From positions 62,001 through 126,000 of the forward strand of contig NZ_FQZU01000015.1 in assembly GCF_900142135.1 (NCBI RefSeq): a DNA stretch of 64,000 nucleotides, written 5' to 3'. The DNA is from Desulfatibacillum alkenivorans DSM 16219. Lineage in GTDB: Bacteria > Desulfobacterota > Desulfobacteria > Desulfobacterales > Desulfatibacillaceae. A model generated the notes under the pieces. It did no database searches. It was not told the DNA's origin and was given only the letters and a program-made list of their open reading frames with translations. Both the position numbers and the translations under genes were made by a program. The number at the start of each line of letters is the position of its first letter. Positions within the stretch are counted from its first letter, which is position 1. Of the stretch, positions 36,102 through 43,890 are shown piece by piece.

Positions 36102-36914
36102 TCACCGCCCTTTCCAATGGTACTTTTCGCCCTTAAGCCAGGCGCTCATGGCGCCGCCTGCGTCTTCCGACTTGAGGGCCGCGTCCAGGCCGTTTTGCTC
36201 AATAAGCAGGGCCTTTTCAAAGTCCGTTTCCAATACGCCCTGGCGGATGGCCTTTTTCGCCAGGGACAGGGCTACGGGCGAGCGGGAGGCTATTTTTCTT
36301 GCGAAGGCCTTGGCTTCTTCCACAAAAGTCTCTTTTTCATATAACCGGTGAACCACGCCCAGATCATAGGCCTCCTCTGGGGAATACACCTTGCCGTGAA
36401 GAATCAGATCCATGGCTTTGGCGACGCCCAGCAAGCGCGCCAGACGCTGGGTTCCCCCTGCGCCGGGAATGATGCCCACGTTGGTTTCCGGCAGGCCGTA
36501 GGTGTGCTTTCCCTTGCCGGCCAGGCGAAAATCGCAGGACAGGGCGATTTCCAGCCCGCCCCCGTGGGCCTGTCCGTTCATGGCCGCAATGGTGATGAGG
36601 CGGCTTTGCTCCAGGGCCAGGTTCAGGCGGTTGAAGGGATAGAGTTTTTGGGGCTTGTCTTGCGCCGTTTCTTTTGTCTTTTGCCTGCCTTCGGACAGGG
36701 ACGCCAACTCGCCCACTTCATAATGGGCGATGAAAAACCGTTCATTTCCGCCCGTTAGCATAAAAACCATGAGGTCATCCATGGCTTCCAGATCCGCCAG
36801 AAGGCGCTGAAACTCGAACACGCCGTCCGCCGTGATGGTATGCCGCGGAGGGTTTTTGAAGGTGCAAAAGGCGATGTTCTTTTCTATGGATACATCAAAG
36901 TATTTGTAGTCCAT
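36102..36914 (-). CDS. Enoyl-CoA hydratase/isomerase (crotonase family)
   Basis: The 270-residue enzyme has the crotonase oxyanion hole ([15 protein letters not shown]) and both candidate catalytic glutamates, Glu122 (GGGLEIAL) and Glu143 ([14 protein letters not shown]), so hydratase activity is likely. It would act in beta-oxidation of acyl-CoAs. The start at 36914 is preferred to the ATG three bases upstream because AGGAGG then sits at a usable distance. No other beta-oxidation gene is adjacent. Confidence 0.92.
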
Positions 36915-37348
36915 CATTCCTCCTGGGCGTTTGTTTTGAATTGGGTTGCTCAATTAAGTTGGTATCGAATGCGAAAAGCCTGTAATCGCGGCCGGACCTT
37001 TACTCCCTATGGACCGTGTAGGGAGGCTATTACGGCCTGAGATGCTATCTTGTTGGGTTTCGCGGGAAGGAAAAAGTCACTTTAATCCAATTCCGCAAGA
37101 TGCAGTTAATAGGCCTTCAACGTGCATTTCCATGCCCTGCCCAACCTATGTTTTATTAATAAAGATGGCAGGTTGGGTAGAGTTCGCATGGCTTTTTTAA
37201 AGAGACTGTTTTCTTGTGCGCCGGGAGCAACGCTGGAAGCCAAAAGCCTAGGAACGGAACCCAACAAATGGATTGCCGTCCCCAGAACTATCTTTTGCCC
37301 TGACAACTCGTCATTCCTGCAAGCGGGAGCCCAGCGCCTTTTTCGGAT
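36915..37348. other. Repeat-bearing gap
   Basis: It contains repeat copy B (37050-37267). To its right, GTCATTCCTGCAAGCGGGAG (37308-37327) resembles the common intergenic motif CGTCATTCCCGC...GCGGGAATCCAG, a second repeat class in the same gap. No gene is seen. Confidence 0.5.
37050..37267. repeat. Palindromic intergenic repeat, copy B (218 bp)
   Basis: The left end is TTGTTGGGTTTCGCGGGAA, and the right end is GGAACCCAACAA. The central inverted arms are CTGCCCAACCT (37137-37147) and AGGTTGGGTAG (37170-37180) around a 22-base A/T-rich loop. The length is exactly that of copy C. It is intergenic, between the crotonase and DUF362 genes. Confidence 0.85.
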
Positions 37349-39751
37349 TTACTCCTCCAAGGGCCTGTCCGGCCACTGGATCTTTCCCCCGTCAAACTCG
37401 ACCGTAAAAACCTTGGCCGGGTCGGACGTCTCCTGGACATGGGGAACCATGCCGCCGGCGCCGAATCCTTCAGGCACGTAAAGCATAAAATCCAGGGGCT
37501 TGATTTCGCCGTTCTTGAGGGCGTCCAAATACAAGTCGGGCGCCTTGGGGTTGGGAACGCCGAATTTCTCCCCCACAAACCGGCTGTTGTTCAAGTACCT
37601 GTCCGCATACCCGAATGCACAGCCCCACAAGCTGAACAAGCCTATGCGTTTGGGGAACTTCCAGCCGTAAGTAATCTGATGGATATGGGCGTTTTTAAGC
37701 TGGGCGAAGCTGGGCCAATTGCCGTTCCCCCAGGTCATGTCCGGAAAAAATTGGTCCGGGACGTCCTTTTTCATGAAGGCCATGGCCATGGCCGCCACGG
37801 CCTGGGAACCCCAGAAAAATTCCCGGTTGAAATAGTGGCCTTCAGCGCTCCACGCGGGATCGGTCCCGCGCAGGGGATTGGCCGTCAGGTCGAAAAATCC
37901 CTTGAAGACGTTTTTCTGGTCCTTCTCGCCCCGATAGCTGATGAACTGGCCGCCCAGGAAAAGGCTGGGCCCGAAAATGCCCTTTTTGCCGTTTTCCTCG
38001 TAGCTGACCACCCCGTCGCCGGTTTCATCAAAGGCTGCCAGGAATTCCTTTTTCATGTTCAGGCCTTCCAGTTCATCCACGGCGTCCAGGTATCCGAAAA
38101 AGGTCTTCTGCAGGTCCCAGGGCATTTTATAGATGTCCCAGTACATGTGCCTGGTGTGGATGTCCGTATACGCGCCGTCGTTCACAAACCCCAGCCTGCC
38201 TCCGTAGGACGCCAACGGAGCTCCGGAAACGTCGTCCCAGCCCGTTACAAAATAATCCGATTGCCCCATGCCCCACTCTATGGCTTTGGCGATGGAAAAA
38301 TCGCGGGAGATGGGGTTGTCCAGAGCCTGCCCGGTGGTGATGGCCTTGCCGTCCAGCTTGGGAACGGGCTGAATCTGGGGGAAGAAGCCTCCGAATCCGT
38401 CGTCCAGGCCGGCTTCCACGGCCTTTTTCAGGCCCATGTTGCAGAACAGATATCGGGCGCACATCAAATCCACGGCCGCTACGTCCGAACTCGCCATGAT
38501 AAGGCCTTCGGCCAAAGCCTGGCCCAGGCCTACCCCCTGGTGGTCCCGGTTGACGGTCTCGATGCCGTCCACAATGTGCAGCATCATCACGTCCTGGCTG
38601 GCCGCCGCCCGGATGATGTCCAGCATGGTGCCCGTGAGGCCGCCGGTCTTCTCCACCTTGTAGACGCCGTCCTCGCCCTTCACCGGAATCATCTGTTTGG
38701 GGTCCAGTTCAGGAACCCAAACCTGATGGGGGATGCGGCTTTTGATGACAGGAATGTCCGTGTCCGGCGTGCCGTACATCCATTTTTTGCAACCGGCGTG
38801 ATTGGCCTGCAAAGGATAAAGCCCAATGCCCAAGTTCTTGATGGCGTTGGTGAACATGGCCTGGGAATGCACCTTGAGCTTGGGTACGTTGACCAGGACG
38901 CAGCCGGGATACTTGCGGCAGTCCTCGGGATCCGCGGGATCGCCGCCCACAATGGCCTTGTGCAGGATAATGGACTTGAAGCACTGGCCGTCGGGCAGGT
39001 CGATGGCCCGCCCCCGGTGGGGATCGTCATGCAGCCGGTTGAGGTCGTAGATCATCAGGCGGCCGCCCGCATCGCCGGGAGCGATGAACTCGCCGGTCAA
39101 ACTTTCGTCATAGCCCAGCATGGGGTTTTCGTCCGAGCCTTGGGGAAGGGTGTCCGCCAGGTAGCGCCTGACAAAATAAAAGCCCCAGCCTCCGTAAAAG
39201 TCGTCGCACTTGCCTTCGTAAGCGGCTTCAGGCGTCACCGCCCGCCCGGTCTTTTTGATCCGGGTGTATTGGGCGGCCCGATAGGCGCTGTTGGAGGCCG
39301 CTTCGCCCATGCACATCTGGCCGTACCGGACGCCGCCTTTATCGTGGAACCAGCGCATAATCGCGGCCAAAAAGGCCCAGTCCGTATTGGCCACCGCTCC
39401 GTTGAACAGCAGGTGGGAATAGGGCTCGATGTTCTCCACGGTCACCAGGTTGGGTTTGAGCAACAGCTTCTTGCCTGTCTTGATCCTGGCCTGCACTTTC
39501 AGCAACAAGCCCTCGGCCTGATCCAGGGCCGACATGGCCTTGTCCATATTTTCGTAGGTGTAATCGATCTTGGCTTTGATCTCCGCCCAGGCCTCCTGGT
39601 CGTCCTCTTCGATCACCTTTTTCAAAAGCGCGGGCGAGCCGATATAAGATTTTTCAGGCGAAACCCTGGCTGCTCCGATGGCCGCGCCCGAGCTGTCCAG
39701 GGAGATTTCCCCCATATCCGATTGTACCGTGATGTCGTTTTTTTGCGTCAT
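37349..39751 (-). CDS. DUF362 protein with EF-hand-like loop
   Basis: The 800-residue protein has the DUF362 core: KKLLLKPNLVTVENIEPYS at about 93-112 and LVNVPKLKVHSQAMFTNAIK at about 290-310. DUF362 proteins often accompany iron-sulfur or redox systems in anaerobes, but this one has no ferredoxin domain. Near residues 570-585, FDETGDGVVSYEENG fits a calcium-binding EF-hand loop (D1, T3, D5, G6, S9, E12). The C-terminal 200 residues are unassigned. No signal peptide is seen. AAGGGAA precedes the ATG. Confidence 0.8.
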   Translation of the reverse strand: MTQKNDITVQSDMGEISLDSSGAAIGAARVSPEKSYIGSPALLKKVIEEDDQEAWAEIKAKIDYTYENMDKAMSALDQAEGLLLKVQARIKTGKKLLLKPNLVTVENIEPYSHLLFNGAVANTDWAFLAAIMRWFHDKGGVRYGQMCMGEAASNSAYRAAQYTRIKKTGRAVTPEAAYEGKCDDFYGGWGFYFVRRYLADTLPQGSDENPMLGYDESLTGEFIAPGDAGGRLMIYDLNRLHDDPHRGRAIDLPDGQCFKSIILHKAIVGGDPADPEDCRKYPGCVLVNVPKLKVHSQAMFTNAIKNLGIGLYPLQANHAGCKKWMYGTPDTDIPVIKSRIPHQVWVPELDPKQMIPVKGEDGVYKVEKTGGLTGTMLDIIRAAASQDVMMLHIVDGIETVNRDHQGVGLGQALAEGLIMASSDVAAVDLMCARYLFCNMGLKKAVEAGLDDGFGGFFPQIQPVPKLDGKAITTGQALDNPISRDFSIAKAIEWGMGQSDYFVTGWDDVSGAPLASYGGRLGFVNDGAYTDIHTRHMYWDIYKMPWDLQKTFFGYLDAVDELEGLNMKKEFLAAFDETGDGVVSYEENGKKGIFGPSLFLGGQFISYRGEKDQKNVFKGFFDLTANPLRGTDPAWSAEGHYFNREFFWGSQAVAAMAMAFMKKDVPDQFFPDMTWGNGNWPSFAQLKNAHIHQITYGWKFPKRIGLFSLWGCAFGYADRYLNNSRFVGEKFGVPNPKAPDLYLDALKNGEIKPLDFMLYVPEGFGAGGMVPHVQETSDPAKVFTVEFDGGKIQWPDRPLEE

Positions 39752-41696: not shown

Positions 41697-42074
41697 TGGG
41701 GACCATTTCCGTAACAGTAAAGATGGGGTAAGTAAATGAGTTCGTTGTATGGCAAATGCCTCAAAATTAATCAATAGTAACTGATATATGGCTATTTTTC
41801 AAGCCCTAATTACAGCACCATGGCGAGGAGCAGCGGTTTTATTTTTTGCAGCTTTTTGGTAGGCGGGCGCGCCAAAACCCTTTGTATAGCAACAGGCGCC
41901 GAAGACGGACAGCCTTCGCCGCCGTTCATGGCCCTTGCGGAAATCAACGTCTGGTTCAAAATTTCTTGACAAGCGTGCAACAGTAATGTAGTCAAGTGTG
42001 TACACTCATCGCCGAAAGGCCTTCTGCTTTCCGGCATAATCGTCAAAGTTGCAAGCTGTTAGGGGGATTCGCTC
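41697..42074. other. Divergent intergenic region
   Basis: It lies between the PAS gene and the alkylsulfatase gene and contains the promoter at 41966-41994. No repeat or other gene is seen. Confidence 0.4.
41966..41994 (+). promoter_or_regulatory. Candidate promoter of the alkylsulfatase gene
   Basis: TTGACA (41966-41971) and TAGTCA (41989-41994) are 17 bases apart, 80 bases before the start codon. The -35 box is consensus; the -10 box is weak, so an activator may be needed. Confidence 0.4.
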
Positions 42075-43844
42075 ATGAAAAAAGTATTGCTGGTATTGGT
42101 TGTCCTGTTGCTCGTTGGCGCAGGAGGAGTGGGGCTTTTCATCAAGCTCCGCAGTCAGCCGTCCATGGAGAAGAAGACAATCGCCAATGTGCAGGCTGCA
42201 GGCAGCCTGAAGGAGCACACCAAGCATTTTGAACGCAAGGTGTATAAAATTGCGGACAATATCTATTCCGCGGTGGGCTTTGGCTTGGCCAATTCCATCA
42301 TGATCGAAGGCGACGACGGCCTGATTATTGTGGACACTATGGAAAGCCTCCAGGAAGCCAGGGATGTTTTGGCGGAGTTCCGCAAGATTTCCGGCAAGCC
42401 GGTCAAGGCCATTATCTACACGCACAATCACACGGACCACATATTCGGCGCCCAGGCCTTTGCGGAGGGCGGCGAGCCCGAGGTCTACGCTCACGAAAAC
42501 CTGGGCTATTACGTAAATCGTCTTGTCAGCAAGATGAAGCCCATCATCGGCAACCGCAGCATGCGCATGTTCGGCAATTTTCTGGACCAGGAAGGCTTGG
42601 AGAACGACGGCATTGGTCCGTTTTTGGGCATCGGCCCGGACCGGGAGCTTGGCTACATCCCGCCCACGCAAACCTTTCGCGATAAAATGGACGTGGAAGT
42701 CGCCGGCGTGAAAATGGAGTTGATTTACGCGCCCGGCGAAACCAACGACACCATCTACGTCTGGCTGAAAGGGCCCCGGATTCTGATGACCGGGGACAAC
42801 CTGTACCGCTCCTTTCCCAATTTGTATACGATTCGGGGAACGCCTTATCGCAGCGTTAAAAGCTGGTATCAGAGCGTGGACATTATCCGGGATCTCAAAC
42901 CCGAAATCATGGTCCCCAGCCACGGCCAGCCGATTTTCGGCGCGGAAAAGGTTTACGCCATCGCCACGGACTACCGGGACGCCATCCAGTACGTGCATGA
43001 CCAGGGCATCCGGTGCATGAATATGGGCATGACGCCGGACCAGATTGTGGAGCAGGTCCATCTGCCGCCTCATCTGGCGGCCTCTCCCTATTTGCAGGAG
43101 TACTACGGCAAGGTGTCCTGGTCCCTCCGGTCTTTGTTCGACGGAAACCTGGGCTGGTTTGACGGGGATTCGGCCACGCTTCAGCCCTTGTCCCAAAAAG
43201 ACAACGCCCAGCTTATGGCCGACCTGGCGGGCGGTAAGGACAATCTTCAAAAAGAAGCCCAGGCAAGGTTTGACCAAGGCCAGTTTCAGGCGGCCTTGCA
43301 GTTGACCGGATACATCATCGCCCTGGATCCGCAGAATCAGGACGCCAGAGGCCTGCGCTCCCAGGCGCTTATCAAAATGGGAGAGCGGGAGGAAAACGCC
43401 AACGCACGCCATTATTATCTGACCGAAGCCCTGGAAATCCGGGACAACTTTGTGGCCAGCACCGGAGACGTCAAGTCCAGCCCGGAAATGGTGCACAGAT
43501 TTCCCATCGAGGGATTTTTCGAGTTAATGGCTGTGGGCCTGGATCCGGTCAAGAGCGCTGACCTGGATCAGAAGGTTGCCATCAGGTTTACGGACGCGGG
43601 CAAGGACTTCACCATCCATGTGCGCCGGGGCGTGGCAGAAATTCAGCCGCGTTTGCTGGATGACCCGGATATCCTTGTGAAGGTGGACTCCAAGATCTGG
43701 AAGGAAATGCTGAGCGGCCTGCGCAATCCCGTGACGACCATGGCGGGATTCGACTATGAAAAGGGCGGAACCATCGCGTTCGCCAAGTTCATGAAGATGT
43801 TCAAAACGCCCGCGCCCAAGCTGGCTTTTGAACCTGCTGCCTAA
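42075..43844 (+). CDS. Alkylsulfatase (SdsA-like, metallo-beta-lactamase fold)
   Basis: The 589-residue enzyme has an N-terminal hydrophobic anchor or signal (VLLVLVVLLLVGAGGVGLFI), a zinc beta-lactamase-fold domain with THNHTDHIFG at 116-125 and VPSHGQPIFG further on, an alkyl-sulfatase dimerisation domain (LGWFDGDSATLQPLS), and a C-terminal SCP2-like domain (VAIRFTDAGKDFTIHVRRGV). Known relatives cleave primary alkyl sulfates to alcohol and sulfate. The product sulfate could feed a sulfate reducer. AGGGGG precedes the ATG, and a strong terminator follows. Confidence 0.93.
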   Translation: MKKVLLVLVVLLLVGAGGVGLFIKLRSQPSMEKKTIANVQAAGSLKEHTKHFERKVYKIADNIYSAVGFGLANSIMIEGDDGLIIVDTMESLQEARDVLAEFRKISGKPVKAIIYTHNHTDHIFGAQAFAEGGEPEVYAHENLGYYVNRLVSKMKPIIGNRSMRMFGNFLDQEGLENDGIGPFLGIGPDRELGYIPPTQTFRDKMDVEVAGVKMELIYAPGETNDTIYVWLKGPRILMTGDNLYRSFPNLYTIRGTPYRSVKSWYQSVDIIRDLKPEIMVPSHGQPIFGAEKVYAIATDYRDAIQYVHDQGIRCMNMGMTPDQIVEQVHLPPHLAASPYLQEYYGKVSWSLRSLFDGNLGWFDGDSATLQPLSQKDNAQLMADLAGGKDNLQKEAQARFDQGQFQAALQLTGYIIALDPQNQDARGLRSQALIKMGEREENANARHYYLTEALEIRDNFVASTGDVKSSPEMVHRFPIEGFFELMAVGLDPVKSADLDQKVAIRFTDAGKDFTIHVRRGVAEIQPRLLDDPDILVKVDSKIWKEMLSGLRNPVTTMAGFDYEKGGTIAFAKFMKMFKTPAPKLAFEPAA

Positions 43845-43858
43845 GGTTGGAAATATTA

Positions 43859-43890
43859 ATCAGGGAACGCACTCGCGTTCCCTGATTTTT
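43859..43890 (+). terminator. Intrinsic terminator of the alkylsulfatase gene
   Basis: ATCAGGGAACGC-ACTC-GCGTTCCCTGAT is a perfect 12-bp stem followed by four Ts. Confidence 0.9.

Follow-up and report, generated by a model that had tools for sequence, protein, structure and literature searches.

The gene at 42075..43844 (+) of the window (the whole 64,000-nucleotide stretch of the Desulfatibacillum alkenivorans DSM 16219 genome that was analysed) encodes a 589-aa protein with an ATG start, which carries the domains and the predicted fold of the alkylsulfatases and has a proline in place of the leaving-group histidine of the sec-alkylsulfatase Pisa1. Homologs with proline or histidine at this place are hereafter called Pro-type and His-type, respectively. 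We give about even chances to the reading that this gene, as a single-gene unit, encodes a membrane-anchored, periplasm-facing di-zinc hydrolase of Pro-type alkylsulfatase fold, which most likely cuts hydrophobic sulfate monoesters for carbon. Zinc would be bound by seven ligand positions kept in the sequence, and the substrates would be alkyl- or sterol-like. Desulfatibacillum oxidises hydrocarbons, and the alcohol freed by cleavage would go to this host as carbon; the freed sulfate would be a by-product entering the cell's pool, and the gene would not be a respiration device.

Domain layout, predicted fold and putative zinc site

The ORF detected spanned exactly 42075-43844 (+), where the first-pass annotation had placed an alkylsulfatase-type gene, and that call was confirmed by the ORF, the three-domain layout and the predicted fold. 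The antisense ORF 42006-43493 was ruled out as a true gene, with no Pfam family at E 1e-4; because the opposite strand gave no such match, the coding ORF is not a chance frame. The protein contained, in this order and each above its gathering score, a metallo-beta-lactamase domain (PF00753, Lactamase_B, residues 68-283, 42276..42923 (+), E 6.9e-26), an Alkyl_sulf_dimr domain (PF14863, residues 320-457, 43032..43445 (+), E 5.3e-45) and an Alkyl_sulf_C domain (PF14864, residues 468-581, 43476..43817 (+), E 1.6e-10). All three scored above the curated cut-offs, which places the protein in the alkyl-sulfatase family at the Pfam level. The best six PDB sequence matches were SdsAP (4nur), Pisa1 (two sequences), the K. 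pneumoniae yjcS product (7tl5), YjcS and SdsA1, with E of about 1e-59 to 2e-56. A second Desulfatibacillum genome carried an ortholog at 83-84% identity (84% in Desulfatibacillum sp. MAG7).

An AlphaFold2 model of the window protein, obtained from 17 aligned rows, had a mean pLDDT of 84.2 and a pTM of 0.80, with residues 177-186 below a pLDDT of 50. Foldseek comparison of the model with Pisa1, SdsA1, SdsAP and YjcS gave TMq values of 0.79-0.84 over near full length, and the VIA structural alignments to the same enzymes gave Z of 34.0-39.9 over 526-544 residues (rmsd 2.5-3.1). The next chain after the alkylsulfatases reached a Z of 26.3 and covered the first domain only. The window protein is predicted to adopt the three-domain alkylsulfatase fold. 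Pisa1, the inverting sec-alkylsulfatase of Pseudomonas sp. DSM 6611, shares the three domains, was among the top Foldseek matches and gave the top Z (39.9), tied with SdsA1 (39.2), but its identity to the window protein is 25%. The Pseudomonas primary alkylsulfatases SdsA1 and SdsAP share the predicted fold, HxHxDH and the Asn and Args of the sulfate loop, at ~24% identity, and YjcS of E. coli K-12 (b4083), a His-type protein, shares the domain set and fold at 23% identity. The solved enzymes have an N-terminal extension before the first domain, whereas the window protein lacks it and has an anchor helix instead.

The zinc ligands of SdsAP are His192, His194, Asp196, His197, Glu303, Glu322 and His367 (PMC5426288). 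At these places the window protein has H117, H119, D121 and H122, forming the HxHxDH motif (42423..42440 (+)), E222 (42738..42740 (+)), D241 and H283 (42921..42923 (+)), with 7/7 ligand positions kept. This is the ligand set of the Type III alkylsulfatases and of SulfAtlas family S3 (HxHxDH plus Glu, Glu/Asp and His). In our alignment, Pisa1 has Glu/Asp at the same two ligand positions as the window protein, the Asp standing where SdsAP has the bridging Glu322; the Asp of Pisa1 is placed at the "histidine" site in PMC5426288, unlike in our alignment. This discrepancy leaves the set of ligand positions unaffected.

The Tyr246/Gly263 pair is required for the activity of SdsAP on SDS (PMC5426288). 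In the sequence columns read on SdsAP, the window protein has F166/G181, an aromatic/Gly pair that resembles the Tyr/Gly of the primary alkylsulfatases and not the Ser233/Phe250 of Pisa1, in a part where the model is of low confidence. The putative sulfate-binding loop GDNLYRSFPNLYTIRGTPYR (residues 240-259, 42792..42851 (+)) includes the ligand position Asp241 and, at the place of Pisa1 His317, Pro248. Residues 240-259 matched the published S3 sulfate-loop pattern, which permits His or Pro, with His in 84% of its authors' sequences (PMC5066984, section 11).

The Pro-type branch

In Pisa1, His317 protonates the leaving sulfate (PMC4163651). The residue at this place was His in 13 and Pro in 66 of the 79 aligned rows (L023 was dropped, being identical to L003), with the window protein in the Pro group; the row set was gathered mostly with the window as query, and therefore this ratio cannot be carried over to nature in general. 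The other loop residues were kept across both groups: Asn249 and Arg254 in 76 rows each and Arg259 in all 79. Three further positions, mostly conserved among the His-type rows, differed in the window protein. The residue before YYG was Arg in 12/13 His-type rows and Gln in the window protein and in 41/51 core Pro-type rows, and the His-Asn of the His-type enzymes, SdsA1 and SdsAP included, was replaced by Trp-Ser. The core Pro-type set of 51 rows excluded 15 of the 66, namely the odd rows L020, L083, L084, L088 and L089 and ten rows without Trp349 or Arg254; conservation of these two residues in the core is by construction, since both belonged to its definition. Several Zn-ligand residues are missing from L088 and L089 (G322 and G234), which are possibly relatives without enzyme activity.

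A new histidine replacing His317 was considered, as 40/51 core Pro-type rows have His218, four residues before Glu222. It serves only in part, because the window protein has Tyr at 218 and such a substitute does not explain it.

A tree was built with IQ-TREE from 78 rows and 555 columns, omitting the fragment L020. The 13 His-type rows, including SdsAP, YjcS and Pisa1, were split from the 65 Pro-type rows by a branch of length 1.25 (100/100). The window protein lay outside the SdsAP/YjcS/Pisa1 clade and grouped with Desulfatibacillum sp. MAG7 and next with other Desulfobacterota; several Pro-type rows sat on very long branches, and their placement is unsure. Identity of the window protein was 24.6% to SdsAP, 24.7% to Pisa1 and 22.9% to YjcS, compared with 50.7% between SdsAP and YjcS and 48.4% between SdsAP and Pisa1. 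S3 membership asks for an identity to SdsA1 of at least 30% across ~600 residues (PMC5066984). On this SdsA1 threshold, the one compared here of a search that its authors ran with 17 other seeds too (PMC5066984), the window protein fell short, with 24% identity when structurally aligned with SdsA1 (2cfu, 2cfz and 2cg2) and 24.6% to SdsAP.

The window protein fails the two His-type tests (residue and clade) and the S3 identity threshold, and we have filed it under neither. Of the initial label "alkylsulfatase", the domain set and the predicted fold stood, but assignment to the SDS-type is unsupported because Pro replaces the acid His, three more positions differ and the protein lies outside the clade of the structure-solved enzymes. 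Within a known Pfam-level family the window gene is an ordinary member, but one from a branch that lacks the leaving-group acid found in Pisa1.

It is possible, though in our view not probable, that the protein is no sulfatase and that the scaffold serves the Pro-type branch for some other substrate, a hydrophobic ester or a lactone, whose anion the loop Asn/Arg/Arg would hold in place of sulfate. The metallo-beta-lactamase superfamily has a wide chemistry, and the loss of the acid across the Pro-type branch, the 1.25-long separation at 100/100, the changed pocket positions and a Halieaceae homolog that adjoins acyl-CoA dehydrogenases, not sulfur genes (see below), all point in this direction. 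The retention of Asn249 (76/79), Arg254 (76/79) and Arg259 (79/79), however, argues against this reading, as do the C-terminal domain retained in the window protein and the acceptance of Pro by the published S3 pattern (PMC5066984).

We consider it rather unlikely that the Pro-type proteins form a separate class of envelope-anchored zinc hydrolases in hydrocarbon- and lipid-degraders, which would dispense with the leaving-group acid by another mechanism (e.g., S-O cleavage instead of the C-O cleavage known for Pisa1 and unlike the studied enzymes with this fold) or through a non-sulfate substrate. If this were true, the database labels "alkyl sulfatase" on Pro-type proteins would be wrong. With the names "Alkyl_sulf_dimr" and "Alkyl_sulf_C", Pfam makes it easy to label as "alkylsulfatase" the members of a branch that lacks the acid of the mechanism proposed for Pisa1; this branch made up 65/78 tree rows in a sample that came for the most part from searches with the window. 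The activity of the Pro-type proteins bears on the use of such labels in sulfur-cycle reconstructions. In the open-access literature searched we found, yeast Bds1 and fungal MaAts (PMC8951457) aside, no Pro-type enzyme with measured activity.

Predicted membrane anchor and gene neighbourhood

Residues 2-25 (42078..42149 (+)) form a predicted membrane anchor, a strongly hydrophobic helix (hydrophobicity peak of 3.04) that was also present in the AlphaFold2 model, and no cleavage site was seen by eye at the N-terminus. Among the 79 aligned rows, 67 had a hydrophobic stretch near the N-terminus above the chosen cut-off and L005, L047 and L073 had none. A simple lipobox pattern occurred in 29/66 Pro-type rows; each frame was taken from the preceding stop onward, and some of these matches possibly lie upstream of the true start. 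An envelope location is likely because of the predicted anchor helix, and the periplasmic side is suggested because the same domains stand behind lipoprotein-like signals in relatives, the charges flanking the helix being ambiguous as to side. The window protein is probably membrane-anchored and envelope-located. The export that the first-pass annotation had set as a condition was in this way supported as a probable envelope location, by helix 2-25 and by the lipobox-like N-termini of many relatives.

The gene is flanked upstream by a divergent PAS protein gene and downstream by a convergent gene of the succinate-CoA-transferase family. A likely intrinsic terminator, a 13-bp hairpin followed by a T-rich tail, lies at 43858..43890 (+), between the gene and the convergent CoA-transferase gene. 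Its fold z was -6.88, with 0/200 shuffles as good, and it was absent from the list of a consensus terminator scan. The gene appears to stand alone and to be transcribed as a single gene. A shared operon with genes of sulfate transport or reduction was considered, and the flanking genes examined include none of these.

The sister genome had different neighbours within 6 kb of the ortholog. Across 18 Desulfobacterota loci (L097-L114, several shortened by contig ends), no neighbour family was common beyond near relatives and scattered cases, and shared neighbour clusters were found mainly within one genus or family (e.g., L099, L100 and L103). The scattered exceptions were genes of the acyl-CoA-dehydrogenase cluster in L104 and L110 and of the LLM, SDR and enoyl-CoA-hydratase clusters in L113, the last having a counterpart in the window at 36102-36953.

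At the Halieaceae-type loci (L009-L019), one or two acyl-CoA-dehydrogenase-cluster genes directly followed the homolog in 10/11, with an LLM-cluster gene in 10/11 and an SDR-cluster gene in 7/11; these counts were made by a simple ORF rule, and the families were read on L015 alone. That locus encodes pimC-like and pimD-like dehydrogenases that score below their equivalog cut-offs, an SDR and, above its cut-off, an LLM oxidoreductase of the Rv3520c subfamily. A thioredoxin/TPR-protein gene borders these genes on one side and an aceK-like gene on the other. The G251 homolog, placed by the tree as sister to the Halieaceae-type, had LLM- and SDR-cluster genes within 6 kb. The neighbours in the Halieaceae-type loci and in G251 point to lipid or cyclic-carbon breakdown. 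The carbon role proposed for the window gene is drawn from this distant family, because the Desulfobacterota loci have no neighbour family common beyond near relatives. As an observation in its own right, the Haliea alexandrii locus (L015:5881-11938) and other Halieaceae-type loci represent a recurrent cluster in which a lipoprotein-like Pro-type homolog occurs together with acyl-CoA dehydrogenases, an SDR and an LLM oxidoreductase of F420 type.

Sulfate respiration and the distribution of homologs

Matches above the curated cut-offs were obtained in the host genome (6.47 Mb, 102 contigs) for dsrA (615 bits), aprA (953 bits) and two sat genes (358 and 352 bits). The gene set of a dissimilatory sulfate reducer (dsrA, aprA and sat) is thus present, and since these genes pass the cut-offs the host can be taken as a sulfate reducer, as the first-pass annotation had thought probable. 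The genome has one other PF14863 gene (C10), also Pro-type, and one PF00884 match. This second PF14863 gene (L116:6047-8350) has a loop without Arg-Gly and lies <20 bases from a same-strand gene of the fatty-acid-hydroxylase family, possibly forming a two-gene unit with it.

We have then counted the relatives of the window protein at an identity of at least 44%, and dsrA at E<=1e-80, in 395 Desulfobacterota genomes. Window-type carriers amounted to 26/395 genomes, and 12 of these 26 had dsrA, against 190/395 overall (Fisher p=1); a co-occurrence with dsrA was accordingly rejected. Among the named carriers of window-type relatives outside Desulfobacterota were genomes of Haliea, Solimonas, Kineobactrum, Rhodospirillales and Bacteroidota, and Myxococcota-assigned ones.

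The His-type search used L036, the homolog of the sister genome (G001), as query. It matched 27 genomes, of which G085 was dropped since its match was Pro-type (L074). Among the 26/395 carriers left, 19 had dsrA, against 171/369 other genomes (Fisher p=0.013, relatedness ignored). The histidine was seen directly in 8 of the 26 carriers and in the rest was taken from an identity of at least 41% to L036; one of the latter carriers, G237, has a split gene. Both searches scored only the two or three best candidates of each genome, and therefore further paralogs may be missed. The His-type homologs lean towards dsrA-positive Desulfobacterota, relatedness being ignored. In the genome of the window, the L036 query gave no His-type homolog at E<=1e-90 with two candidates scored. 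L036 belongs to the same genus and Pfam-level family as the window protein, but shares 24% identity with it and has the loop His, and it is a better candidate than the window gene for the respiration idea.

The full oxidation of dodecanol yields 72 electrons, which reduce 9 sulfates to sulfide, and its oxidation to acetate yields 24 electrons, equivalent to 3 sulfates. One dodecyl sulfate supplies one sulfate, 1/9 of the full-oxidation need, so that dodecyl sulfate is not self-sufficient as a respiratory substrate, and growth on it with no added sulfate could proceed to no more than ~11% of complete oxidation, a working enzyme being granted. For methyl sulfate the balance would be about even.

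The idea of the first-pass annotation, that an exported SDS-type alkylsulfatase makes alkyl sulfate both carbon source and electron acceptor, with the sulfate being respired, is very unlikely for this gene: the protein is not His-type, both PF14863 genes of the host are Pro-type, the L036 query found no match in this genome (E<=1e-90, two candidates scored), carriers of window-type relatives have dsrA as often as expected (12/26 vs. 190/395), such relatives also occur in Haliea, Solimonas and Bacteroidota, the flanking genes are not sulfur genes, and one sulfate comes with a dodecanol that needs nine. What speaks for it are the sulfate-reducing host, the predicted fold, ligand positions and anchor, the lean of His-type homologs towards dsrA-positive Desulfobacterota (19/26 carriers vs. 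171/369) and the published proposal, made for single-cell genomes related to Desulfatiglans, that sulfatases give sulfate reducers both carbon and respirable sulfate (PMC6129605). In a review, too, the purpose given for sdsA1 is to "obtain sulfur for respiration" (PMC5573963), and sulfatase-fed sulfate respiration is not a new idea, being already in print in these two sources. The window gene itself shows no sign of a tie to sulfate respiration. From the earlier interpretation we retain the alkylsulfatase domains and fold, the sulfate reducer and the probable envelope location, and we drop the SDS-type enzyme and the respiratory role. The ecological question that it raised is better put to the His-type homologs, given their lean towards dsrA-positive Desulfobacterota with relatedness ignored.

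Two further observations concern other loci. The sister genome carries a His-type alkylsulfatase homolog at L115:6016-8055 (G001:C92) that adjoins nucleotide-sugar and heptose-kinase-like genes, and the genome of the window gave no match to it. In the window, 37349-39751 (-) encodes an 800-aa protein with a DUF362 stretch, and the opposite strand holds a 775-aa open frame that matches no Pfam family at 1e-4.
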